Program-made: the position numbers and the translations under genes
Notes under the pieces: generated by a model
Told to the model about the DNA's origin: nothing
The model's input: only the letters and a program-made list of their open reading frames with translations
The model's database searches: none
Part shown: positions 7,445 through 53,328 of the stretch, in pieces
How the letters are laid out: each line of letters opens with the position of its first letter
How positions within the stretch are numbered: position 1 is the stretch's first letter
Assembly (NCBI RefSeq): GCF_026210795.1
Contig: NC_089444.1
Span: 2,842,501 to 2,906,500, forward strand
Direction: 5' to 3'
From: Rhizophagus irregularis
Taxonomy: Eukaryota; Glomeromycota; Glomeromycetes; Glomerales; Glomeraceae
Length of the DNA: 64,000 nucleotides

Positions 7445-8056
7445 TTTTTTAGTCTCTTACACTAAATTTCAATAACCTAAAAAATATAAGTTAATTAGAT
7501 AAATTTCGTAAAATTAACTACATAATATTATAAAATAACAAAATAAGCAAACTTTATATATATTGGCTGCATATTGACAACTATGAAAATAATTCCTACT
7601 TTATTTAGTTTCTACTTTCTACAGCTAAAATATAAATATTAATTACCGTATTGATAAAAAAAACCAATATGAATTGAATATTTTCATGTAAATTTAACGT
7701 ATTGTCTAAAGTCAAAGAGGTCGGAGATTCTCTAGTTAGTGTGGGTTTAATGTGATTCTAATGTAGTGACTTTTCTATTCAATATTTCAATGTAATTTAA
7801 ATTAGAGGGTTTTTTTAACTCATAAACACATATTATACATGATGCATGACGTGTATTCATTATCTAAATTTTAAAAAAGAATTTGTATAACACTATAAAA
7901 AATTTGTGACGTAATCAACATAGATGATCCATTATGTAATATTATGTAATGCTTATATAAGTGATTTAAATAATTCTTTTGTGAAACGTTACTTGTACGT
8001 TACATGATTTATTATAAATAAGATTATTTGAAAGATTTTTTGAGCTTTTGAAAACA
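7445..8056 (+). promoter_or_regulatory. Upstream region of kinase gene 1, conserved with its paralogue
   Basis: This stretch aligns with 39003-39480 upstream of the second kinase. The best-conserved part is the last 75 bp. It contains GTTACTTGTACGTTACAT, an AT-rich TATA-like TTATAAATAAGAT near 8013-8025, and the leader TTTTTGAGCTTTTGAAAACA directly before the ATG at 8057. Conservation near the start, stronger than further upstream, suggests that the core promoter and leader are functional. Confidence 0.5.
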
Positions 8057-11000
8057 ATGTTTTCTCAAAATAATTTTATCACATTCTTCTATTTGAAGAT
8101 ATGTTTCACTATTTTGACTATTGTCGCCATTTTCATTATACTTTTGAAAATAAATAATATTTTTAAATATTTAACAACCAATTCTACAAATTGGACCAGT
8201 GGAAATAAAAAAATTGTTAGTTTTATTCAAGAAAGGCAATTAAAAATTGATAATTATGATGATATAGTGCTTGAATGGATACCATACGATCAGTTTAATG
8301 AAATTAAAGAGACAGGAAAAAATGAATTTATGACAGTATATTCAGCAATATGGAAGGATGGTCCATTATACAAGGAGAATAGCTTGAGTAATTATACAAG
8401 AGATTCAAATAAAGAAGTTTCTTTAAAATGTTTGCATAATTCACAAGAATCCATTGATTCCCTAATAGATGAGGTATGAAATTTCTTTAAATATTTGAAT
8501 ACTTATCTTTTTTTAATTAATATATAATCTCTTTTATTTATAATTAGGCTAACAAATATCCAATAGAATATAATGAATTTCATGCATTGTATGGAATATC
8601 TCAAATTCCAGATACAGGAGATTATATTTTAGTTCTTATCTGGACAAGTGGAAATGAAAAAATTGATGGTTTCATTCAAGAAAGGCAATTAAAAATTAAT
8701 AACTATGATGATGTAGTGCTTGAGTGGATACCATACAATCAGTTTAATGAAATTAAAGAGACAGAAAAAAATGAACTTATGACAGTATATTCAGCAATAT
8801 GGAAGGATGGTCCATTATACAAGGAGAATAGCTGGAGTAATTATACAAGAGATTCAAATAAAGAAGTTTCTTTAAAATGTTTACATAATTCACAAGAATT
8901 CATTGATTCTCTAATAGATGAGGTATGAAATTTCTTCAAATATTTAAATACTTATCTTTTTTTAATTAATATATAATCTCTTTTATTTATAATTAGGCTA
9001 ACAAATATCCAATAGAATATAATGAATTTCATGCATTGTATGGAATATCTCAAATTCCAGATACAGGAGATTATATTTTAGTTCTTATCTGGACAAGTGG
9101 AAATGAAAAAATTGATGATTTCATTCTAAAAAGGCAATTAAAAATTAATAACTATGATGATGTAGTGCTTGAGTGGATACCATACAATCAGTTTAATGAA
9201 ATTAGGGAGACAGGAAAAAATGGGCTCATAACAGTATATTCAGCAATATGGAAGGATGGTCCATCACTATGTCATTACGGACATGTAAATTATAGAAGTT
9301 CAAATAAGAAAGTTTCCTTAAAATGTTTACATAATTCACAAGGATCTATTGATTCTTTAATAAATGAGGTATGAAATTTCTTCAAATATTTTTATTTGTT
9401 AATATATTTACAATCTCTTTATTTATAATTAGGCTAAAAAATATCCAACAAAATGTAATTCTTTTCAAGTATTGTATGGAATATCACAAAACCCAGATAC
9501 AGGAGATTATATTTTTATTCAAAATAATTGTATATGGACAAGTGGAAATGAAAAAATTGATGATTTTATTCTAAAAAAGCAATTAAAAGTTAAAAACTAT
9601 GATGATATAGTGCTTGAATGGATACCATACAATCAACTTAATAAAATTAAAGAGACAAGCAAAAATGGACTTATAACTGTATATTCAGCAATATGGAAAG
9701 ATGGTCCATTATTATATTATGGGAAGCATATAAATTATAGAGATTTAAATAAAGAAGTTACTTTAAAATATTTACATAATTCACAAGAATCCATTGATTC
9801 TTTAATAAATGAGGTATAAATTTCTTCAAATATCTACTTTTTTTTAATTAGTATATTTACAATCTTTTTATTTATAATAATTAGGCTAAAAAATATTTAT
9901 CAAAACATAAAGCATTTCAAGTATTGTATGGAATATCTCAAAATCCAGATACAGGAGATTATATTTTAGTTTTTGAGTGGACAAGTGGAAACAAAAATAT
10001 TGATGATTTTCTCCAAAAAAAGAAATTAGGATTTAGAAACTATAATGATATAATATTTGAATGGATAGCATACAATCAGCTAAATGAAATTAAAGAGACA
10101 GGTAAAAATGGACTTATAACTGTGTATTCAGCAATATGGAAGGATAATCGTCCATTATTATATCATGGGAAGCATTTAAATTATAAAGGTTCAAATAAAA
10201 AAGTTGCATTAAAATGTTTACATAATTCACAAGAATCTATTAATTCTTTAATAAATGAGGTATGAAATTTCTTTAAATATTTTTCATTTGTTAATATATT
10301 TACAATCTCTTTATTTATACTTAGGCTAAAAAATATCCAAAAAAATATGAAGCATCTCAAATATTGTTTGGGATATCACAAAATCCTGATACAGAAGATT
10401 ATATTTTAGTTTTTAACTGGACAAGTGGAAACGAAAAAATTGATGATTTCATTCTAGAAAGGCAATTAAATATTAATAATTTTGATGATACAGTACTTGA
10501 ATGGATACCATACAATCAGTTTAATGAAATTAAAATGACAGGAAAAAATGAACTTACAACAGTATATTTAGCAATATGGAAGGATGGTCCAATACATAAG
10601 AAGAATAAACAGAGTAATTATATAAGAGATTCATATAAGGAAGTTTCTTTAAAATGTATTCATAATTCACAAGAATCCATTGATTCCCTAATAGATGAGG
10701 TATGAAATTTCTTTAAATATTTGAATACTTATCTTTTTTTAATTAATATATAATCTCTTTTATTTATAATTAGGCTAAAAAATATCCAATAGAATATAAT
10801 GAATTTTATGTATTATATGGAATATCACAAAACCCAGATACAGCAGATTATATTTTGGTTTTTAACTGGACAAGTGGAAATGAAAAAATTGATGATTTCA
10901 TTCTAGAAAGGCAATTAAATATTAATTATTTTGATGATATAGTGCTTGAATGGATACCATACAATCAGTTTAATGAAATTGAAAGGATAGGAAAAAATGA

Positions 11001-14000
11001 ACTTACAACAGTATATTCAGCAATATGGAAAGATGGTCTATTATACAAGAAGTATAGTTGGAGTAATTATACAAGGGATTCAAATAAAGAAGTTGCTTTA
11101 AAATGTTTACATAATTCACAAGAATCCATTGATTCCTTAATAAATGAGGTATGAAATTTCTTTAAATATTTGAATATTCTTTTTTTAATCAGTATATTTA
11201 CAATTTTTAGGCTAAAAAATATCCAATAAAATATAAAGCATTTCAAGTAGTATATGGAATATCTCAAAATCCAGACACAGGAGATTATATTTTAGTTCTT
11301 AACTGGACAAGTGGAAATGAAAAAATTGATGATTTCATTCTAGAAAGACAATTAAATATTAATAATTTTGATAATAAAGTGCTTGAATGGATACCATACA
11401 TTCAGTTTAATGAAATTGAAAGGATAGGAAAAAATGAACTTACAACAGTATATTCAGCAATATGGAAAGATGGTCCATTGTGTTATCAGTATGGTAAATA
11501 TACAAGAAATCCAAATAAAAAAATTGCTTTAAAATGTTCATATAATTCACAAGGATCCATTGATTCTTTAATAAATAAGGTATGAAATTTCTTTAAATAT
11601 TTAAATACTTTTTTTTAATTAGTATATTTACAATCTCTTTTACCTATAATAATTAGGTTAAAAAATATTCAACAATATATAAAGAATTTCAAGTAGTATA
11701 TGGAATATCTCAAAATCCAAATACAGAAGATTATATTTTAGTTTTTAGCTGGACAAGTGGAAATGAAAAAATTGATGATTTTATTCTAGGAAGGCAATTA
11801 AGGATTATTAATCATTTTGATAATATAGTACTTGAATGGCTTGAATGGATACCATACAATCAGTTTAATGAACTTAAAGAAACAGGTAAAAATGGACTTA
11901 TAACTGTATATTCAGCAATATGGAAGGATGGTCCATTAAAGTGGTATTGGAAGGATGAAAACTATACAAGAGATTCAAATAAAAAAGTTGCTTTAAAATA
12001 TTTACATAATTTACAAGAATCCATTGATTCTTTAATATATGAGGTATAAATTTCTTTAAATATTTTAAATACTTTCTTAATTTGTATATTTACAACCTCT
12101 TTTATTTATAATTAGGCTAGAAAATATTTAGCAAAGTATAAACCATTTCAAATATTATATGGAATATCTCAAAGTCCTAATACAGGAGATTATATTTTAG
12201 TTCTTAACTGGACAAGTGGAAATGAAAAAATTGATGATTTTATTCAAGAAAAGCAATTAAAAATTGAAAACTATGATGATATAGTGCTTGAATGGATACC
12301 ATACAATCAGCTTAATGAAATTAAAGAAACAGGCAAAAATGGACTTATAACAGTATATTCAGCAATATGGAAGGATGGTCCATTATGCAAAAAGAATAAA
12401 AAGAGTAATTACTATACTAGAGATTCAAATAAAAAGGTTTCTTTAAAATGTTTACATAATTTACAAGAATCTACTGATTCTTTAATAAATAAGGTATGAA
12501 ATTTCTTTAAATATTTAAATACTTTTTTAATTAATATGTTTATAATTTCTTTTATTTAAAATTAGGCTAAAACATATTCAACAAAACGAGAAGCATTTCA
12601 AGCATTATATGGGATTTCTCAAAATCCAGATACAAGACATTATATTTTAGTTCTTATCTGGGCAAGTGGAAATGATAAAATTGATGATTTTATTCAAAAA
12701 AGGCAATTAAAAATTAATAACAATGATGATATAGTGCTTGAATGGATACCATACAGTCAGTTTAATGAAATTAAAGAGATAGTTAAAAATGGCTCTGTAA
12801 CAATATATTCAGCAATATGGAAGGATGGTCCATTTTATTGGAATAATCAGAATGAAGAATATACAAGAGATCCAAATAAAAAAGTTTCTTTAAAATATTT
12901 ATACAATTTACAAGATTCCATTGATTATTTAATAAATGAAGTATGCAACGAAATTTCTTTTAATTTTTAAGCACTTTTTTTAATTGAATATATTTACAAT
13001 TTTTGTTAATTATTATTAGGCTAAAAAATATTCAGCAAAATATAAAGCATTTCAAGTATTGTATGGAATATCTCAAAATCTAGATACAAGAGATTATATT
13101 TTGGTTCAAAATTATTGTATGTACTTGGAGAATTGGTTCAGAGAAAATGAAAAAATTGATGATTTCATTCAAGAAATGAAAATTAATGACTATAATGATA
13201 TAGTATTTGAACAGATACCATACAATCAGTTTAATGAAATTAAAATGACAGGTAAAAATGACCTTATAACAGTATATTCAGCAATATGGAAAGATGGTCC
13301 ATTGCATTATCATTATAGTCAGTATACAAGAGATTCAAATAAAGAAGTTGCTTTAAAATGTATACAGTATTCACATGAATCTATTGATTCTTTAATAAAT
13401 GAGGTAATGAAATTTCTTTAAATATTTTAATACTTATTTTTTTTTAATTAGTATATTTACAATCTCTTTTATTTATAATTACTAGGCTAAAAAATATTTA
13501 ACAAAACATAAAGCATTTCAAATATTGTATGGAATATCTTTAAATCCAGATACAGGAGATTATATTTTAGTTTTTAACTGGACAAGTGGAAATGAAAATA
13601 TTGATGTTTTTATCCAAGAAATGCAATTAAAAATAAATCATCATAGTGATATAATGTTTGAATGGATACCATATAACCAGTTTGTTAATATTAAGGAAAT
13701 AGGTAAAGGCGGTTTTGCTATGGTACATTCTGCAAATTGGAAAAATGGTCCATTAGAATATAATGCAGCTAATAAAGCATATAAAAGGAATCCAAATAGA
13801 GTAATTGCCTTGAAATGTTTGCATAATTCGCAAAATATTAGCAATAAATTTTTAAATGAGGTAAAAATTTCTTTTAAAATATTTATAAGAAAAATTCTTT
13901 ATAAACATAATAATGAAATAACTATTTTTATTATATATTTTAATAGGTTAAAAAATACTCAATAAATATAAGAAGTAACATTCTTAATATATATGGAATA

Positions 14001-14810
14001 TCTCAAAATCTAAATACAAATGAATATATTATGGTTTTACAATATGCAAAAGAAGGCAATTTTAATCATTGGATAAATGAAAACTATAAATATTTTAATT
14101 GGAAAGATAAATTATCTGCATTGAAAAATATTATTAATGGCCTTAAAGAAATTCATCAAAATAATATAGTTCATCGTGATTTTCATACAGGAAATATATT
14201 ATTTTTGAGTGATATAAATGAATTTGGTAATTGTATATCAATTTCAGATATGGGATTATGTGGAGAGGTTGGTAATATAGATGAAACTAAAATCTATGGA
14301 GTTATGCCTTATGTGGCTCCTGAAGTATTAAGAAGAAAGCCTTATACCAAAGAATCAGATATCTATAGTTTGGGTATGATAATGTATTTTATAGCAAGTG
14401 GAAGACAACCTTTTGATGATTATGCACATGATTATAATTTAGCATTAGATATTTGTAAAGGAGTTAGACCTGAAATAAATGAACCAGAAGCACCAAGATG
14501 TTACATTGAATTAATGAAAAAGTGTTGGGATTTAAACCCAAATAATAGGCCAAATATTTTTGAAGTAAATGAATTAATTGCATCATTTTATAAGTTATAT
14601 GATAGGAATTTTTTTACAGTAGAAAATGAAGAAATTGGATTGCAATTTAAAAAAGCAGAAGAATATAGAAAGGCAAATCTTCCATTCATTAAAAATCACC
14701 AAATAACTACCCATCCACAAGCTATTTACACATCTCGATTACTTAATCCTTTTACAGAAGATCTTCCAGAATATGATGATAATTCTCAATGTTTGGATCA
14801 AGTAATTTAA
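8057..14810 (+). CDS. Multi-N-lobe protein kinase, gene 1 (14 exons, about 1,933 aa)
   Basis: Exons are 8057-8473, 8548-8922, 8997-9368, 9433-9813, 9885-10259, 10325-10699, 10774-11148, 11211-11579, 11657-12043, 12116-12493, 12566-12940, 13020-13403, 13486-13860 and 13947-14810. All introns are 62-86 nt, GT-AG and phase 0. Exons 1-13 each carry a kinase N-lobe unit: an EWIPYNQF linker, a glycine loop, a VYSAxWKDGPL strand, a VALKCLHNSQ strand with the ATP-binding lysine, and the alpha-C glutamate as the last or next-to-last exon residue. Copies 1-12 mostly read GKNGLITV in the loop; copy 13 reads GKGGFAMV, the canonical form. Exon 14 adds hinge, VHRDFH catalytic loop (Asp near 1724), DMG in place of DFG, YVAPEVL and SDIYSLGM. 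ATG 8057 is chosen because the preceding in-frame codon is a TTG and the paralogue starts at the same place. Residues 7-30 are strongly hydrophobic, a possible membrane anchor. Expected to be a Ser/Thr- or dual-type kinase; substrates unknown. Confidence 0.88.
8548..13485 (+). repeat. Tandem exon array, 12 N-lobe exons after the first copy
   Basis: Twelve exon-plus-intron units of 434-470 bp follow one another. Each exon begins GCTAAAAAATAT or a close variant, contains YGISQNPDTGDYILV and ends ATAAATGAG or similar. Each intron begins GTATGAAATTTCTT and ends in TATTTATAATTAG-like sequence. Exons are 369-387 bp and always a multiple of three. One unit has an extra repeat of LEW (11838-11850), showing small in-frame slippage as well. 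Confidence 0.9.
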
Positions 14811-32943: not shown

Positions 32944-34143
32944 TAAAGCTCCGAACAGTTCCGGTTTGAACCGGGAACCGATCCGGAACCGGCAAAAAAT
33001 TCGGTTCGGTTCTCGGTTCGGTTTTGGACTTGGAACCGTCCGGTTCGGTTCGGTTCTATCCGAAATTAAGAAAAAATGCGAAAAAACGAATATACGACTA
33101 TCCAGTGATCGTACAAGGACGAGCCATAGCTCGTTGGAATCCTCTCATCGAGACGCGTCGAATGGTGGTAAAATCAAGTCTCTAGCATCGATAGATCACG
33201 AGATAGCACATGGTGAGTGTTTCTTAAAAAATTTGCATTAGAAAACGATCCATTGATGCTAGAGACATGAAATTACCACCATTCGACGCATCTCGACGAG
33301 ACGAATCTAATGAGCTATAATTCGTCTTTTTACAATCACTGGATGGTCGTGTATTCGTTTTTTCGCATTTTTTTTTAAATTTTCGAACGTCAAAAATTAA
33401 AATTCCGATACAAGCGATTAAACGCCATCTATTGATTACACAAAGACGAATTTTAGCTCATTGGATTCGTCTCACTGAGATGAGTCGAATGGTGGTAAAA
33501 TGATGTCACTAGCATCGATAGATCGTTTTCTAATGCGAATTGTTTAAGAAACACTCACCATGGGCTATCTCACGATCTATCGATGCTAGAGACTTGATTT
33601 TACCACCATTCGACTCGTCTCAGTGAGACGAATCCAATGAGCTAAAATTCGTCTTTGTGTGATCAATAGATAGCGTTTAATCGCTTGTATCGGAATTTTA
33701 ATTTTTGACGTTCGAAAATTTAAAAAAAAAATGCGAAAAAACGAATACACGACCATCCAGTGATTGTAAAAAGACGAATTATAGCTCATTAGATTCGTCT
33801 CGTCGAGATGCGTCGAATGGTGGTAATTTCATGTCTCTAGCATCAATGGATCGTTTTCTAATGCAAATTTTTTAAGAAACACTCACCATATGCTATCTCG
33901 TGATCTATCGATGCTAGAGACTTGATATTACCACCATTCGACGCGTCTCGATGAGAGGATTCCAACGAGCTATGGCTCGTCCTTGTACGATCACTGGATG
34001 GTCGTGTATTCATTTTTTCGCATTTTTCTTAATTTCGGATAGAACCGAACCGAACCGGACGGTTCCGGTTCGGTTCCATTTCGGTTTTCGGTTCTACCCG
34101 AACCGCAAAAAAACCGAACCGAACCGACCCGTTCGGAGCTTTA
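32944..34143. mobile_element. Near-perfect 1.2-kb palindromic foldback element
   Basis: The ends are TAAAGCTCCGAAC and its complement, and essentially the whole element is one inverted repeat centred near 33545. It is bordered by the 8-bp duplication TCCCTGAC on both sides, so it is probably mobilised by a hAT-type transposase. Each arm holds an outer block rich in CCGGTTCGG and AACCGAACC motifs and two copies of a sub-unit with CATCCAGTGAT, then GTCGAATGGTGGTAA, then CTAGCATCGATAGATC, then GTTTTCTAATGC. No protein-coding frame is credible; open frames here are palindrome artefacts. Confidence 0.88.
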
Positions 34144-39480: not shown

Positions 39481-42400
39481 ATGCTTTCTCAAAATATATC
39501 TTTGACAGAAAATAATATTCTGAAATATTTAGAAACCAATTTTACAAATTGGACAAGTGGAAATGAAAAAATTGATGACTTTATTCAAGAAAGGCAATTA
39601 AAAATTAATACCTATAATGATTTAGTGCTTGAATGGATACCATACAATCAGTTTAATGAAATTAAAGAAATAGGAAAAAATGGCCTTGTAACAGTATATT
39701 CAGCAGTATGGAAGGATGGTCCATTATACAAGGAATATAATGATAGTAGTTATACAAGAGATTCAAATAAAAAAGTTGCATTAAAATGTTTACATAATTC
39801 ACAAGAACCAATTAATGCTTTAATAAATGAGGTACGAAATTTCTTCAAATATTTAATAAATACTTATTGTAATTAATATATTTAAATCTCTTTTATTTAT
39901 ATTTAGGTCAAAAAATATCCAACAATATATAATGCATTTCAAGAATTATATGGAATTTCTCAAAATCCAGATACAGAAGATTATATTTTAGTTCTAACCA
40001 ATTTTATAAACTTGGCAAATTGTAACAGTGGAAATGAAAAAATTGATGATTTTATTCAAGAAATGCGATTAAAAATTGATAACTATGATGATATAGTGTT
40101 TGAATGGATACCATACAATCAGTTCAATGAAATTAAAGAGTCAGGCAAAAATGGTCTTATAACAGTATATTCAGCAGTATGGAAGGATGGTCCATTACAC
40201 AAGAAGTATACTTATGATAGTTATACAAGAAATTCAAATAAAGAAGTTGCTTTAAAATGTTTAAATAATTCACAAGATTCCACTGATTTTTTAATAAATG
40301 AGGTATGAAATTTCTTCAATTATTTAATAAATACTTATTGTAATTAATATATTTACAATCTCTTTTATTTATTTATATTTAGGCTAAAAAATATCAAGTA
40401 AATCATAATGCATTTCAAGCATTATATGGAATATCTCAAAATCCAGATACAGGAGATTATATTTTGGTTCTAACCAATTTTATAAACTTAGCAAATTGTA
40501 ACAGTGGAAATGAAAAAATTGATTATTTTATTCAAGAAAAGCAATTAAAAATTGATAACTATGATGATATAGTGTTTGAATGGATACCATACGATAATCA
40601 GCTTAATGAAATTAAAGAGTCAGGCAAAAATGGTCTTATAACAGTATATTCGGCAGTATGGAAGGATGGTCCATTATATAAGAAATATAATAATAGTAGT
40701 TATACAAGAGATTCAAACAAAAAAGTTGCATTAAAATGTTTACATAATTCACAAGAACCAATTGATGCTTTAATAAATGAGGTACGAAATTTCTTCAAAT
40801 ATTTAATTAATACTTTAATATTGTAATATATTTACAATCTCTTTTATTTATATTTAGGCTAAAAAATATCAAGTAAAGCATAATGCATTTCAAGCATTAT
40901 ATGGAATATCTCAAAAACCAGATACAGGAGATTATATTTTGGTTCTAACCAATTTTATAAACTTGGCAAATTGTAATAGTGGAAATGAAAAAATTGATGA
41001 CTTTATTCAAGAAAAGCAATTAAAAATTGATAAATATGATGATATAGTGTTTGAATGGATACCATACAATCAGCTTAATGAAATTAAAGAGTCAGGCAAA
41101 AATGGTCTTATAATAGTATATTCAGCAGTATGGAAGGATGGTCCATTATATAAGATATATAATAATAGTAGTTATACAAGAGATTCAAATAAAAAAGTTG
41201 CATTAAAATGTTTACATAATTCACAAGAACCAATTGATGCTTTAATAAATGAGGTACGAAATTTCTTCAAATATTTAATAAATACTTATTGTAATTAAAA
41301 TATTAATCTCTTTTATTTATATTTAGGCTAAAAAATATCAAATAAAGCATAAAGCATTTCAAACATTATATGGAATATCTCAAAATCCAGATACAGGAGA
41401 TTATATTTTGGTTCTAACCAATTTTATAAACTTAGCAAATTGTAACAGTGGAAATGAAAAAATTGATGATTTCATTCAAGAAAAGCAATTAAAAATTGAT
41501 AACTATTATGATATAGTGTTTGAATGGATACCATACAATCAGCTTAATGAAATTAAAGAGTCAGGCAAAAATGGTCATATAACAGTATATTCAGCAGTAT
41601 GGAAGGATGGTCCATTATATAATAATAGTAGTTATACAAGACATTCAAATAGAAAAGTTGAATTAAAATGTTTACATAATTCACAAGAACCAATTGATAC
41701 TTTAATAAATGAGGTACGAAATTTCTTCAAATATTTAATAAATACTTATTGTAATTAATATATTTACAATTTCTTTTATTTATATTTAGGCTAAAAAATA
41801 TCAAGTAAAACATAAAGCATTTCAAGTATTATATGGAATATCTCAAAATCCAGATGCAGGAGATTTTATTTTAGTTCTCAACTGGACAAGTGGAAATGAA
41901 AAAATTGATGATTTTATTCAAGAAATGCGATTAAAAATTGATAACTATAATGATATAGTGTTTGAATGGATACCATATGATCAGTTTAATGAAATTAAAG
42001 AATCAGGCAAAAATGGTCTTATAACAGTATATTCAGCAGTATGGAAGAATGGTCCATTGTACAAAAAGAATATATGGAGTAATTATACAAGAAATTCAAA
42101 TAAAGAAGTTGCTTTAAAATGTTTAAATAATTCACAAGAATCCATTGATTTCTTAATAAATGAGGTATGAAATTTCTTCAAATATTTAAGTACAATTTAA
42201 TTAATATATTAACAATCTCTTTTATTTATATTTAGGCTAAAAAATATCAAGTAAAGCATAAAGCATTTCAAGCATTATATGGAATATCTCAAAATCCAGA
42301 TACAGGAGATTATATTTTAGTTCTTATCTGGACAAGTGGAAATGAAAAAATTGATGATTTCATTCAAGGAAGTCAATTAAAAATTGATAACTATGATGAT

Positions 42401-45400
42401 ATAGTGCTTGAATGGATACCATGCAATCAGTTCAATGAAATTAAAGAGTCAGGCAAAAATGGCCTTATAACAATATATTCAGCAGTATGGAAGGATGGTC
42501 CATTATATAAGAAATATAGTAATAGTAGTTATACAAGAGATTCAAATAAAAAAGTTGCATTAAAATGTTTACATAATTCACAAGAACCAATTGATGCTTT
42601 AATAAATGAGGTACGAAATTTCTTCAAATATTTAATAAATACTTATTGTAATTAAAATATTAATCTCTTTTATTTATATTTAGGCTAAAAAATATCAAAT
42701 AAAGCATAAAGCATTTCAAACATTATATGGAATATCTCAAAATCCAGATACAGGAGATTATATTTTGGTTCTAACCAATTTTATAAACTTAGCAAATTGT
42801 AACAGTGGAAATGAAAAAATTGATGATTTCATTCAAGAAAAGCAATTAAAAATTGATAACTATTATGATATAGTGTTTGAATGGATACCATACAATCAGC
42901 TTAATGAAATTAAAGAGTCAGGCAAAAATGGTCATATAACAGTATATTCAGCAGTATGGAAGGATGGTCCATTATATAATAATAGTAGTTATACAAGACA
43001 TTCAAATAGAAAAGTTGAATTAAAATGTTTACATAATTCACAAGAACCAATTGATACTTTAATAAATGAGGTACGAAATTTCTTCAAATATTTAATAAAT
43101 ACTTATTGTAATTAATATATTTACAATTTCTTTTATTTATATTTAGGCTAAAAAATATCAAGTAAAACATAAAGCATTTCAAGTATTATATGGAATATCT
43201 CAAAATCCAGATGCAGGAGATTTTATTTTAGTTCTCAACTGGACAAGTGGAAATGAAAAAATTGATGATTTTATTCAAGAAATGCGATTAAAAATTGATA
43301 ACTATAATGATATAGTGTTTGAATGGATACCATATGATCAGTTTAATGAAATTAAAGAATCAGGCAAAAATGGTCTTATAACAGTATATTCAGCAGTATG
43401 GAAGAATGGTCCATTGTACAAAAAGAATATATGGAGTAATTATACAAGAAATTCAAATAAAGAAGTTGCTTTAAAATGTTTAAATAATTCACAAGAATCC
43501 ATTGATTTCTTAATAAATGAGGTATGAAATTTCTTCAAATATTTAAGTACAATTTAATTAATATATTAACAATCTCTTTTATTTATATTTAGGCTAAAAA
43601 ATATCAAGTAAAGCATAAAGCATTTCAAGCATTATATGGAATATCTCAAAATCCAGATACAGGAGATTATATTTTAGTTCTTATCTGGACAAGTGGAAAT
43701 GAAAAAATTGATGATTTCATTCAAGAAAGTCAATTAAAAATTGATAACTATGATGATATAGTGCTTGAATGGATACCATGCAATCAGTTCAATGAAATTA
43801 AAGAGTCAGGCAAAAATGGCCTTATAACAATATATTCAGCAGTATGGAAGGATGGTCCATTATATAAGGAATATAGTAATAGTAGTTATACAAGAGATTC
43901 AAATAAAAAAGTTGCATTAAAATGTTTACATAATTCACAAGAATCCATTGATTTTTTAATAAATGAGGTATGAAATTTCTTCAAATATTTAAGTACAATT
44001 TAATTAATATATTTACAATCTCTTTTTATTTATATTTAGGCTAAAAAATATCTGACAAAAATCTCAAAACATAAAGCATTTCAAGTATTGTATGGAATTT
44101 CTCAAAATCCAGATACAGGAGATTATATTTTAGTTCTTATCTGGACAAGTGGAAATGAAAAAATTGATGATTTCATTCAAGAAAGGCAATTAAAAATTGA
44201 TAACAATGATGATATAGTGTTTGAATGGATACCATACAATCAGCTTAATGAAATTAAAGAAACAGGCAAAAATGGCCTTATAACAGTATATTCTGCAGTA
44301 TGGAAGAATGGTCCATTATACAATAAATATAGTTATAGTAGTTATACAAGAAATCCAAACAAAGAAGTTGCTTTAAAATGTTTACATAATTCACAAGAAT
44401 CCATTGATTTCTTAATAAATGAGGTATGAAATTTCTTCAAATATTTAAGTACAATTTAATTAATTTATTTACAATCTCTTTTTATCTATATTTAGACTAA
44501 AAAATATCCAACAAAACATAAAGCATTTCAAGTATTGTATGGAATATCTCAAAATCCAGATACAGGAGATTATATTTTTATTCAAAATAATTATATATGG
44601 ACAAGTGGAAATGAAAAAATTGATGATTTTATTCAAGAATTAAAAATTAATAACTGTGATGATATAGTATTTGAATGGATACCTTACAACCAGTTTAATG
44701 AAATTAAAGAAATAGGAAAAAGTGGCCTTGTAACAGTATATTCAGCAATATGGAAGGATGGTCCATTATATAAGAAAAGTGATATGTGGAGTGAAAATTA
44801 TACAAGAGACTCAAATAAAGAAGTTGCTTTAAAATATTTGCATAACTCACAAAATTCTGTTGACCTTTTAATAAATAAGGTATGTCATTTTAATAAATAT
44901 TCATAAACTTAATATAGTATATTTATCTCTCCTTATTTATATTTAGACTAAAAATTACTTAACAAAATCAAAAATATTTGACAGAGTAATTTGTGATATA
45001 TATGGAATATCTCAAAATCCAGATACAAATAATTATATTTTAGTTCTGGGATGGACAAGTGGGAATGAAAATATTGATAATCTTATTCAAGAAATACAAT
45101 TACAAATAAATAATCACAGTGATATAGTATTTGAATGGATACCATATAATCAGTTTAATAACATTAAGGAAATAGATAAAGGTGGATTTGCTACAGTATA
45201 TTCTGCAAATTGGAAAAATGGTCCATTAGTATGTGATACAAATAAAAAAATGTATAAAAGGAATCCAAATAGAGTAATTGCCTTAAAATGTTTACATAAT
45301 TCACAAAATATTACCAACAAATTTTTAAATGAGGTATGAAATTTCTTTAATAATTTATTTGTAGTAATAAATATGATGTTAATTTGAGCATAATATATTA

Positions 45401-46293
45401 ATTATTTCCATTATAAATACATTTAATAGGTCAAAGAATACTCAATAAATAAAAGTAGCAATATTCTTAATGTATATGGAGTATCTCAAAATCCAAATAC
45501 AAAAGAATATATTATGGTTCTCCAGTATGCAAAAGAAGGCAATTTTAATCATTGGATAAATAAAAACTATGAACATTTTAATTGGAAAGATAAATTATCT
45601 GCATTGCTTGATATTATTAATGGTCTTAAAGAAATTCATCAAAAAAATATAGTTCATTGTGATTTTCATACAGGAAATATATTATTTTTAAGTAATATAA
45701 ATATTTTTGGTAATTGTATATCAATTTCAGACATGGGATTGTGTGGAGAGGTTGGTAATATAGATGAAACTAAAATTTATGGAGTTATGCCTTATGTGGC
45801 TCCTGAAGTATTAAGAAGAAGGTCTTATACCAAAGAATCAGATATCTATAGTTTTGGTATGATAATGTATTTTGTAGCAACTGGAAGACAACCTTTTTAC
45901 AATCGTGCACATGATCATCTTCTTGCATTAGATATTTGTAAAGGACTTAGACCTGAAATAAATGAATTAGAAGCACCAATATTTTATATTGATGTAATAA
46001 AAAAGTGTTGGGGTTTAGACAAGAATAATAGACCAAATATTTTTGAAGTAGAAGAATTGATCAAATCATATCATAAATCATATGGAGGGGATCTTTTTAT
46101 AGTAGAAAATGAAGATATTAAAACACAATTCGAGAAAGCAGAAGAATATAGAAAAGCAAATCTTTCATTTATTAAAAATTACCAAATAACTACCCATCCT
46201 CAAGCTACTTACACATCTCGATTACTTAATCCTTTTACAGAAGATCTTCCAGAATATGACGATAATTCTCAATGTTTAGATCAAGTAATCTAA
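39481..46293 (+). CDS. Multi-N-lobe protein kinase, gene 2 (14 exons, about 1,944 aa)
   Basis: Exons: 39481-39831, 39907-40302, 40383-40781, 40858-41253, 41327-41713, 41790-42164, 42236-42610, 42684-43070, 43147-43521, 43593-43967, 44040-44423, 44496-44879, 44947-45333 and 45430-46293, all phase 0 with GT-AG introns of 72-96 nt. Architecture equals gene 1: 13 N-lobe copies, then one C-lobe exon. Copies 2-5 and 8 have a longer hinge insertion (TNFINLANCNSGNEK). Loops read GKNGLITV in most copies. The last N-lobe has DKGGFATV, losing the first glycine, and the catalytic loop is VHCDFH rather than HRD, though the Asp is kept; DMG replaces DFG. Activity may be altered, but the VALK lysine, alpha-C Glu and catalytic Asp are present. 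The N-terminus lacks the hydrophobic segment of gene 1. ATG 39481 lies at the position equivalent to gene 1. Confidence 0.87.
41172..43942 (+). repeat. Nearly identical 1,357-bp tandem duplication of three exons
   Basis: Exons 5-6-7 and 8-9-10 recur at a constant offset of 1,357 bp, introns included. Identity runs from about 41172 (inside exon 4) to about 42585 (inside exon 7), and from 42529 to 43942. I see only single-base differences, for example GGAAGT against GAAAGT in exons 7 and 10. Breakpoints inside homologous exons point to unequal crossing-over. Confidence 0.9.
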
Positions 46294-52199: not shown

Positions 52200-52440
52200 A
52201 CGTTTTGCCGAAAGCCACTTTGCCGAAACCCATTTCGCCGAAGCCATTTCGCCGAAGGGATGTTTTGCCGAAAAGATGTTTCGCCGAAGAGACGTTTCGC
52301 CGAAAGGATGTTTCACCGAAGCCGTTTCGCCGAATCATCCATTTCGCCGAAAGGATGTTTCGCCGAAACCCATTTTGCCGAAGCCATTTCGCCGAAAAGA
52401 TGTTTCGCCGAAAGCCATTTAGCCGAAAATGATAGAAATA
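52200..52440 (+). repeat. TTTCGCCGAA minisatellite, left arm
   Basis: About 15 units of 14-17 bp, each with TTTCGCCGAA or a one-base variant followed by a variable 4-6 bp such as AGGATG, ACCCA or AGCCA. It has no spacers of constant length, so it is not a CRISPR array. Confidence 0.9.
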
Positions 52441-52550
52441 TTACTTTTATAAAATTATTAATCGTGCAATCATGAAAATAAATTTTTTTTTTATTTATTT
52501 ATTAATCTCTTGATCTCTTCATGAACCTTAATTCGTAATTCATGTAAGAT

Positions 52551-52703
52551 TATATGATGGTTTTACAATACTGTAAAGATGGAAATTTGAGAAATTACTA
52601 TATGAATAAAAAATTAGATTATTATTCAAAAATTGATAAATTACAACAAATTGCAAGTGGACTTCTGGATATTCATAATTCTGGAAAAATAATTGTTAAT
52701 TAA
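52551..52703 (+). pseudogene. Captured kinase fragment (hinge to catalytic loop)
   Basis: Fifty codons read YMMVLQYCKDGNLRNYY, then KIDKLQQIASGLLDIHNSGK and end IIVN with a TAA. This aligns with the hinge, alpha-D and alpha-E of the kinases in this window (YIMVLQYAKEGNFNHWI, then KLSALKNIINGLKEIH) and breaks off just where HRD should follow. N-lobe and C-lobe remainder are absent. Confidence 0.85.
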
Positions 52704-53061
52704 CAAAATTATAGTAAAAATGCCTTGCAATTTCTTATTAATAAAGTGTGAACCAGAAGGCTCATAATTTATATTTATATACATTTTAACGTATATTAAT
52801 GGATTTTTTAAAAAAAAGTAATATAAAAAAAATAAAAAAATTATCCTATTTTAAGGCTAACAGTTTATTTTGTAAAAAAAAATTTTTAATTTTTCCAATT
52901 ATCAACTTTTTTTAAGAATTATTTGTGAAATTGTAAGATTTACAAATGTTACAATTAATACTTGAATAAAATAGATCCAATGTCAGAGTTTTCTCAGTAA
53001 AAATTTCAGCCAATTCGGCTAAAAATTGACCGATTTACCTATGTAAGAAACGCAGATTTCC

Positions 53062-53310
53062 AAAGGTTTCGGCAAAACGTTCTTTCGGCGAAATGGCTTC
53101 GGTGAAATGGGTTTCGGCAAAATGTCCTTTCGGCGAAATAGCCATTCGACAAAATGGCTTCGGCAAAATGGGTTTCGGCGAAACGTCCCTTCGGCGAAAT
53201 GGCCCTTCGGCGAAATGTCTCTTCGGCGAAACATCCCTTCGACGAAATATACCTTCGGCGAAATGGCTTCGGCGAAATGGGTTTCGGCAAAATGGCTTTC
53301 GGCAAAATGT
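53062..53310 (-). repeat. TTTCGCCGAA minisatellite, right arm (inverted)
   Basis: About 16 units in inverse orientation to the left arm. The outermost four or five units match the outermost left units almost base for base, which establishes them as terminal inverted repeats rather than an unrelated array. Confidence 0.9.
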
Positions 53311-53328
53311 CCTGATACCCATTAAATT

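Follow-up and report, generated by a model that had tools for sequence, protein, structure and literature searches.

Arrays of degenerate kinase N-lobes before a single terminal kinase in predicted proteins of Rhizophagus irregularis

Introduction

A degenerate kinase-derived domain is placed before a kinase in JAK, GCN2 and the plant tandem kinase proteins, and in these proteins the pseudokinase has both lobes. Here we describe gene A, located at positions 8057–14810 on the + strand of a 64,000-nucleotide stretch of the Rhizophagus irregularis genome (contig NC_089444.1, positions 2,842,501 to 2,906,500 of the forward strand; hereafter the window), which encodes 13 kinase N-terminal lobes (N-lobes) and a single C-terminal lobe (C-lobe). 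It shares with the kinase-pseudokinase tandems the degenerate domain that precedes the kinase; however, in gene A and its relatives only the N-lobes are repeated, up to 24 times, and the sole C-lobe is terminal. We know of no other arrangement in which an N-lobe array precedes a single complete kinase, and no description of a repeated-N-lobe architecture was found in the open-licence literature (titles, abstracts and some passages), which agrees with the original prediction, made from this DNA, in that no named architecture of this kind was known to it either.

The enzymes closest to the terminal part of gene A are the tyrosine kinase-like (TKL) kinases (PF07714), the nearest solved chains being those of Dictyostelium Roco4, followed by DAPK-type and RIPK1 chains. 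The terminal N-lobe and the C-lobe of gene A are of this same kind, with the GKGG, Lys, Glu, HRD and DMG elements, but they are preceded by 12 extra N-lobes. The kinase repertoire of R. irregularis comprises 2,533 members (PMC10234402), an expansion of TKL genes has been reported (PMC4219462), and duplicate genes occur in tandem arrays (PMC8647823); the genes described here very likely belong to this expanded repertoire. Nevertheless, the passages that deal with the expansion describe repeated genes and high copy number, and not N-lobes repeated within one gene (PMC10234402, PMC8647823).

A third point of comparison is provided by the fungal NLRs, among which het-d and het-e carry highly conserved WD repeats in variable number (PMC1805685), and whose domains include protein kinase and serine protease (PMC4986451). 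Both systems have repeats of variable number that are copied and exchanged within a gene family and coupled to an output domain. In contrast to these NLRs, the repeat is here a kinase N-lobe, no NACHT or NB-ARC nucleotide-binding domain was detected at E 0.1 in the 14 exons of gene A, most pairs of units are less than 85% identical, and only two sites are diversifying after calibration.

Organization of gene A

When 14 open exons are joined at their visible boundaries, gene A is an unbroken frame from the ATG at 8057 to the stop at 14810, coding for 1,933 residues. All 14 exon lengths are divisible by three and the 13 introns, of 62–86 nt, are all GT-AG; none of them could be retained and leave the frame open. 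The array has a tandem period of 449 bp, and given its Tandem Repeats Finder score of 6334 the repetition is not due to chance. Each intron is located directly 3' of the alpha-C Glu codon, and an internal exon encodes beta4-beta5 of one lobe plus beta1 to alphaC of the next. In the protein, the unit is formed by beta1-beta2-beta3-alphaC and then beta4-beta5 (AKKY...YGISQNPDTGDYILV); consecutive units are joined at the hinge, where a C-lobe would normally start, and the N-terminus of the following unit reads WTSGNEKIDDF.... The original prediction located 13 N-lobe copies and one C-lobe exon in this interval, and all of them are there, on the + strand and in this single frame; it was also right that there are 13 lobes, although not in equating each exon with a whole lobe, since the intron just past the alpha-C Glu splits every one of them. 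The parts are the following:

7985..8056, + strand, promoter-side and 5' leader block (GTTACTTGTACGTTACA..TTATTATAAATAAG..TTGAGCTTTTGAAAACA), common to most array genes (alignment upstream of 17 arrays)
8057..8473, + strand, exon 1: ATG, N-terminal extension and N-lobe 1 (beta1 to alphaC)
8090..8146, + strand, hydrophobic, membrane-span-like insert in exon 1 (Kyte-Doolittle 2.62 at residues 12-30)
8548..8922, + strand, exon 2: beta4-beta5 of lobe 1 and N-lobe 2
8997..9368, + strand, exon 3
9433..9813, + strand, exon 4
9885..10259, + strand, exon 5
10325..10699, + strand, exon 6
10774..11148, + strand, exon 7, for which a structure was predicted
11211..11579, + strand, exon 8
11657..12043, + strand, exon 9
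12116..12493, + strand, exon 10
12566..12940, + strand, exon 11
13020..13403, + strand, exon 12
13486..13860, + strand, exon 13: beta4-beta5 of lobe 12 and the terminal N-lobe, with GKGGFA at about 13702-13719
13947..14810, + strand, exon 14: beta4-beta5 of lobe 13, the C-lobe (HRD at about 14172, DMG at about 14247) and the stop (PF00069, E 1e-33)

Exons 13 and 14 joined match PF07714 with an E value of 1.9e-39 and PF00069 with 4.2e-38, and the terminal pair carries GKGGFA, IALK, NE, HRD and DMG; by profile and motifs the terminal domain is a TKL-like protein kinase. In the 12 non-terminal copies the second Gly of the loop is always replaced by Asn, as had been predicted, but the literal GKNG that was expected in most of them occurs in only 4. 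Likewise, the claim that these copies keep the catalytic residues is correct for the VAIK-type Lys (12 of 12) and only in part for the alpha-C Glu (10 of 12; copies 8 and 10 have Lys instead). A lone kinase N-lobe cannot catalyse; 12 of the 13 lobes have no C-lobe and the gene has only one, in agreement with the proposal that these copies are not enzymes by themselves. The loop Gly is gone from 12 of the 13 lobes but kept in the one that adjoins the C-lobe, which points to a split of roles between one catalytic pair and many non-catalytic lobes.

No Pfam kinase was detected at E 0.1 in exons 1-12, nor in one unit placed in N-lobe register. This silence is partly an effect of length, because exon 13, which bears the terminal N-lobe, is also under the cut-off when it is searched alone (E 0.063). 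The internal units align to the terminal N-lobe with no large gaps. The predicted model of exon 7, a check proposed with the original prediction, shows beta4, beta5, a helix, beta1, beta2, beta3 and alphaC in the order implied by the exon (predicted local distance difference test 68; predicted TM-score, pTM, 0.60); its likeness to a kinase N-lobe is weak, since with a second structural aligner the 50 rows listed are all kinases, matched over the N-lobe, at Z values of only 3.6-4.4. Foldseek returned no match below 0.001 for the models of exon 7 and of two units. The exon 7 model weakly suggests an N-lobe-like fold for the internal units, whose identity is more firmly grounded in their homology to the terminal lobe at the sequence level; the two-unit model is too poor to be of use.

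The hydrophobic insert of exon 1 is present only in gene A and absent from the other 16 arrays that have a 5' end (see below); through it, the gene A product might be membrane-anchored.

Gene B and the array family

Gene A is not an isolated oddity but one member of a family. Another array built in the same way, overlooked by the original prediction, lies in the window: gene B (39481-46293), whose 1,944 residues comprise 13 N-lobes and one C-lobe:

39481..45333, + strand, gene B exons 1-13: 12 degenerate-loop N-lobes and a terminal N-lobe with DKGGFA
45430..46293, + strand, gene B exon 14: C-lobe (DMG present, HRD replaced by HCD) and the stop (PF07714, E 2.4e-31)

The internal exons of both genes are all divisible by three, with the same phase at start and end. 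Units 5-7 and 8-10 of gene B are near-identical blocks. The kinase activity of gene B is less sure than that of gene A, because of its DKGGFA loop and its HCD.

A search of the R. irregularis genome with one unit gave 4,334 candidates, of which 150 were scored as matches; about 35 array places on 12 contigs were recognized by eye among the matches listed, and around two thirds of them lie at about 2.4-4.7 Mb of contig C16, as if this were a nursery (L and C numbers are our working labels for loci and contigs). Genes A and B together with 16 further arrays (18 stretches, two arrays spanning two each), on 11 contigs, were scanned with profiles built from genes A and B. These 18 arrays, designated class 1, have 6 to 25 N-lobes each and 210 units in total (a raw recount gave 211, one unit at a stretch edge having been counted twice). 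By position, 16 of the 18 end with a GGF-loop N-lobe followed by one C-lobe exon, after 5-24 degenerate-loop N-lobes, and the profile scan found no C-lobe between units in any array. Among these 16 C-lobes, that of L004 has a doubled tail stretch, that of L015 runs off the end of the stretch examined, and that of L013 shows no H-x-D motif. HRD is replaced by HCD in L018, as in gene B, and by HHD in L017; judged by these motifs, the terminal kinases of gene B, L018, L017 and L013 may be weak or inactive.

The two exceptions are of different kinds. In L006 the terminal lobe is present, but no more than the first few codons of the C-lobe remain. In L005 (830-2653 of the locus, minus strand; C9, about 3,338,830-3,340,650), ten N-lobes and a partial next unit are followed by an intron and then by a different, non-kinase C-terminal region, a frame of 509 residues with NYHVL and DEGDSG stretches. 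By these motifs the region may be trypsin-like; Pfam gave no match above the cut-off and PDB no convincing one. Its four closest relatives, on C20, C13, C11 and C21, adjoin no unit among the matches listed.

Another aspect common to the arrays is the 5' end. A related exon 1, often close to MFSQNIPLTxNNILKYLETNFTN, is present in all 17 arrays that have a 5' end (L018 has none), and exact leader motifs are found upstream of 14 of these 17 and inside none of the 18; the sequence upstream of L010 and L017 is of another kind, and the usual ATG of L006 does not lie in frame. The possibility of separate small genes was rejected, given the related exon 1 at array 5' ends, the leader motifs that are never inside an array and the frame that is continuous through it. 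As read from the DNA, genes A and B and many of their relatives are one continuous frame formed by a shared ATG exon, degenerate-loop N-lobes, an intact-loop N-lobe, a C-lobe and a stop, and we infer that the arrays are spliced constitutively into long proteins, of about 1,900 residues for genes A and B. In L032, two of the introns between units have been lost with the frame kept, which fits a read-through of the units as one protein. Since a query with the first exon has 29 hits with E values of 1e-7 or lower among the matches listed, some 30 genes of class 1 may exist in the genome; 15 of the 29 lie within the 18 arrays, the other 14 are known from the match alone, and gene A and L004 score worse than this threshold.

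A loop-signature pattern with 240 matches versus 30 in the control (100 places listed) was used for locating only. The ratio of N-lobe to C-lobe patterns across the genome (1,356 versus 282) was discarded, given that the N-lobe pattern finds 82 sites in the loci, far below the unit count, and that both patterns match other kinase subfamilies. Outside this genome, pattern stretches were present in viral contigs (98) and genome contigs (23) from sets that hold no other fungal genome, and none was confirmed as a relative.

Loop signature and relationships of the lobes

Internal and terminal units were first sorted by loop motif, and sorting by position gives the same 16 terminal units. Asn occupies the loop position in 95% of the 187 internal units and Gly in all 16 terminal ones; the internal units keep the beta3 Lys (94%) and the alpha-C Glu (88%). 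The 16 terminal lobes form an exact clade with a support of 1.0 in both nucleotide and protein trees, and, since the internal and terminal lobes of class 1 are thus separate clades (support 1.0), the internal lobe type is, by these phylogenies, old and common to the arrays.

To see how far the plan extends, kinases of the subfamily were sampled from H-x-DFHTGN matches without Lys at x, among 100 of 282 (contigs C1-C6), by taking every third of the first 34; the resulting 12 included one already-known array, and the other 11 were examined. With broken or partial lobes counted, 9 of these 11 have at least four N-lobes in the 5.3 kb upstream of them; of the remaining two, L034 has three partial N-lobes and is a decayed array, and L029 has a single N-lobe, so that 10 of 11 have more than one. 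In most sampled kinases, as well as in five further stretches, a CxxC...WCxxC sequence stands between units; this zinc-ribbon-like element, found in L019-L027 and L030-L033 between beta5 and the next WTSGNEK, is absent from the class-1 arrays. The loop pattern is kept in 14 of 15 terminal lobes of the sampled classes (the single lobe of L029 among them, with L025 as the exception) and in none of the 66 lobes scored as internal, the nearest being unit 2 of L027, with KGGFI; the internal set includes the last lobe of L034 (GEGCFA), owing to the decay of that gene. Three hand-picked HKDFHSGN kinases have the same exon structure with a single N-lobe in about 3 kb upstream.

L035, picked for its regular pattern matches, has 11 degenerate-loop units followed by AKGGFGKVY and a C-lobe. 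Its relationships were addressed with a 130-lobe IQ-TREE tree without supports and a FastTree tree with them; in the latter, class 1 was represented by 20 random internal units and the 16 terminal ones, and L034 was left out, as was L038, a misplaced fragment that overlaps L039. The units of L035 group in a single clade with its own terminal lobe (0.94), separately from the internal units of class 1 (0.994), and therefore the array plan may have arisen more than once.

Constraint, decay and turnover of the units

The scan of the 18 arrays gave 215 N-lobe matches, of which 10 are partial; two of the other 205 have no beta4-beta5 partner, leaving 203 for the ratio of non-synonymous to synonymous change (dN/dS). 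Since the units were taken from stop-to-stop frames, the absence of stops holds by construction, and for this reason broken units, i.e., split or partial matches, were counted instead. Among the 210 units only 5 are broken or truncated: two belong to L014, and L009, L013 and L018 have one apiece; the neutral substitution expectation is that about 0.1% of units would be stop-free. The introns are GT-AG at the profile edges in 194 of 203 cases, and the other nine comprise seven edge offsets and two odd ends (L003 unit 9 and L007 unit 4).

Amino-acid change was tested as well, because the need for an intact terminal kinase could by itself keep the frames open. For internal units the median pairwise dN/dS is 0.53 when the two come from different arrays and 0.57 when they share one; for the terminal units it is 0.37. 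Counted on the tree, dN/dS is 0.645, versus 0.87-1.21 in neutral simulations that reject stops, and 41 and 38 of 124 sites are constrained in two calibrated runs; constraint on the internal units is real but mild. Eight of the 15 fastest sites fall in the beta2-beta3 loop (residues 60-67), at 1.5 to 2.4 times the simulated rate. HET-like diversifying selection is not claimed: 14 of 125 sites were obtained at p<0.05 before calibration, and 2 of 124 when the test was calibrated on simulated neutral change.

The nearest neighbour of 128 of the 187 internal units is in the same array. The highly conserved repeats of fungal NLRs are set at 85% identity or more across no fewer than 100 residues; unit pairs that reach 85% amount to 41 of 45 in L006, 15 of 66 in gene B and 1 of 66 in gene A, and there are none in L003, L009 and L018. 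The separate clades, together with same-array neighbours and near-identical blocks, suggest that the array plan is old and that tandem copying still goes on within the arrays.

Possible roles of the array

The explanation that we tentatively prefer, at somewhat less than an even chance, is that each gene encodes one long protein in which the terminal TKL-like kinase is equipped with a series of interaction modules, the non-catalytic N-lobes, their copy number being reshuffled by tandem duplication. The lone N-lobes would fold as beta-sheet modules that are no longer half of an active site; the array would offer repeated surfaces for contact with partner proteins or between the lobes themselves, and would in this way control or place the single terminal kinase. 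Units would be gained, lost and copied within the array through tandem duplication and exchange, and array length and the exposed beta2-beta3 loop would change fast while the fold is kept. Several observations weigh against this explanation. The structural match is weak (a Z value of at most 4.4, nothing below 0.001 with Foldseek) and the two-unit model is poor, with a pTM of 0.41; a dN/dS near 0.6 denotes mild constraint; calibrated diversifying sites are 2 of 124; the loop motif is missing from the terminal lobe of L025, and KGGFI is present in an internal unit of L027; and some arrays are decaying, as seen in the broken units of L009, L013/L014 and L018 and in the lost C-lobe of L006.

The main rival is a passive array, in which the N-lobe exon multiplies by unequal exchange and the copies are idle, remaining open only to spare the terminal kinase with which they share the ATG. 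Fresh block copies such as those of gene B, the mild dN/dS, the arrays with broken units and the single-N-lobe relative L029 are all in its favor; nevertheless, stop-free drift was simulated at a dN/dS above the observed 0.645, 38-41 of 124 sites are constrained, arrays are the rule in the sampled subfamily, and the separate lineage of L035 has an array too. We regard this possibility as rather unlikely. Cis autoinhibition ranks next among the roles and seems improbable to us; here the spare N-lobes would vie with the terminal one for the single C-lobe, so that the kinase stays inactive until a signal releases it. An internal lobe that keeps the beta3 Lys and the alpha-C Glu and has lost the loop Gly resembles a non-productive partner, and the terminal placement of the intact-loop lobe also fits; however, one spare lobe would be enough where 5-24 are present, and L005 has ten such lobes on a non-kinase C-terminal region. 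Among the roles considered, repeated contact surfaces appear the likeliest; the original prediction listed binding, decoy, self-inhibition and dimerisation, all of which stand as hypotheses.

Because exon lengths are divisible by three and phases match, any internal exon of genes A and B could be skipped, and the symmetric phase-0 exons might be a reservoir from which alternative splicing sets varied N-lobes beside the C-lobe. This is still less likely, since the internal lobes lack the loop needed by an active pair: the intact loop is in the terminal lobe in 16 of 16 cases of class 1 and 14 of 15 of the sample, versus 0 of 66 internal lobes by pattern. Finally, the original prediction named two findings that would undo it, an assembly artefact and many separate short transcripts. 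Tandem repeats are hard to assemble and each exon is an open frame alone, but 18 arrays, spread over 11 contigs and differing in their units, all show the plan, and the authors of the matching chromosome-scale DAOM197198 assembly state uniform Illumina and Nanopore coverage with repeats fully resolved (PMC10234402); as for short transcripts, the leader motifs that precede 14 of 17 arrays are inside none of the 18. Both look very improbable.

A more far-reaching proposal, which we consider doubtful, is that the N-lobe acts as a repeat module comparable to WD or ankyrin repeats, in giant receptors that would recognise partners or nonself, with exchangeable outputs and with repeats and loops diversified by exchange. 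In this proposal the outputs would be a kinase in most arrays and the protease-like region in L005, and the family would be, with half-kinases as its building blocks, a fungal counterpart of the repeat-bearing NLRs. A recognition role is weakly backed, because only 2 of 124 sites are diversifying after calibration.

Other features of the window

Two further repeats were observed in the window. At 33071-34026 there is another tandem repeat, with a unit of 328 bp, and at 52203-53313 a kinase C-lobe fragment (52563-52682) is flanked by two oppositely oriented blocks of short TTTCGCCGAAAGCCA-like repeats.

Significance

If the explanation that we prefer is true, a long tandem repeat made from one half of a catalytic domain would represent a new route to a regulatory protein, and would show that a kinase N-lobe can stand alone. 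Kinase counts in arbuscular mycorrhizal fungi would also be affected and gene models may miss the extra lobes, given that Pfam is blind to those of gene A. If the arrays recognise something, they would be candidates for the discrimination of partners by these fungi.

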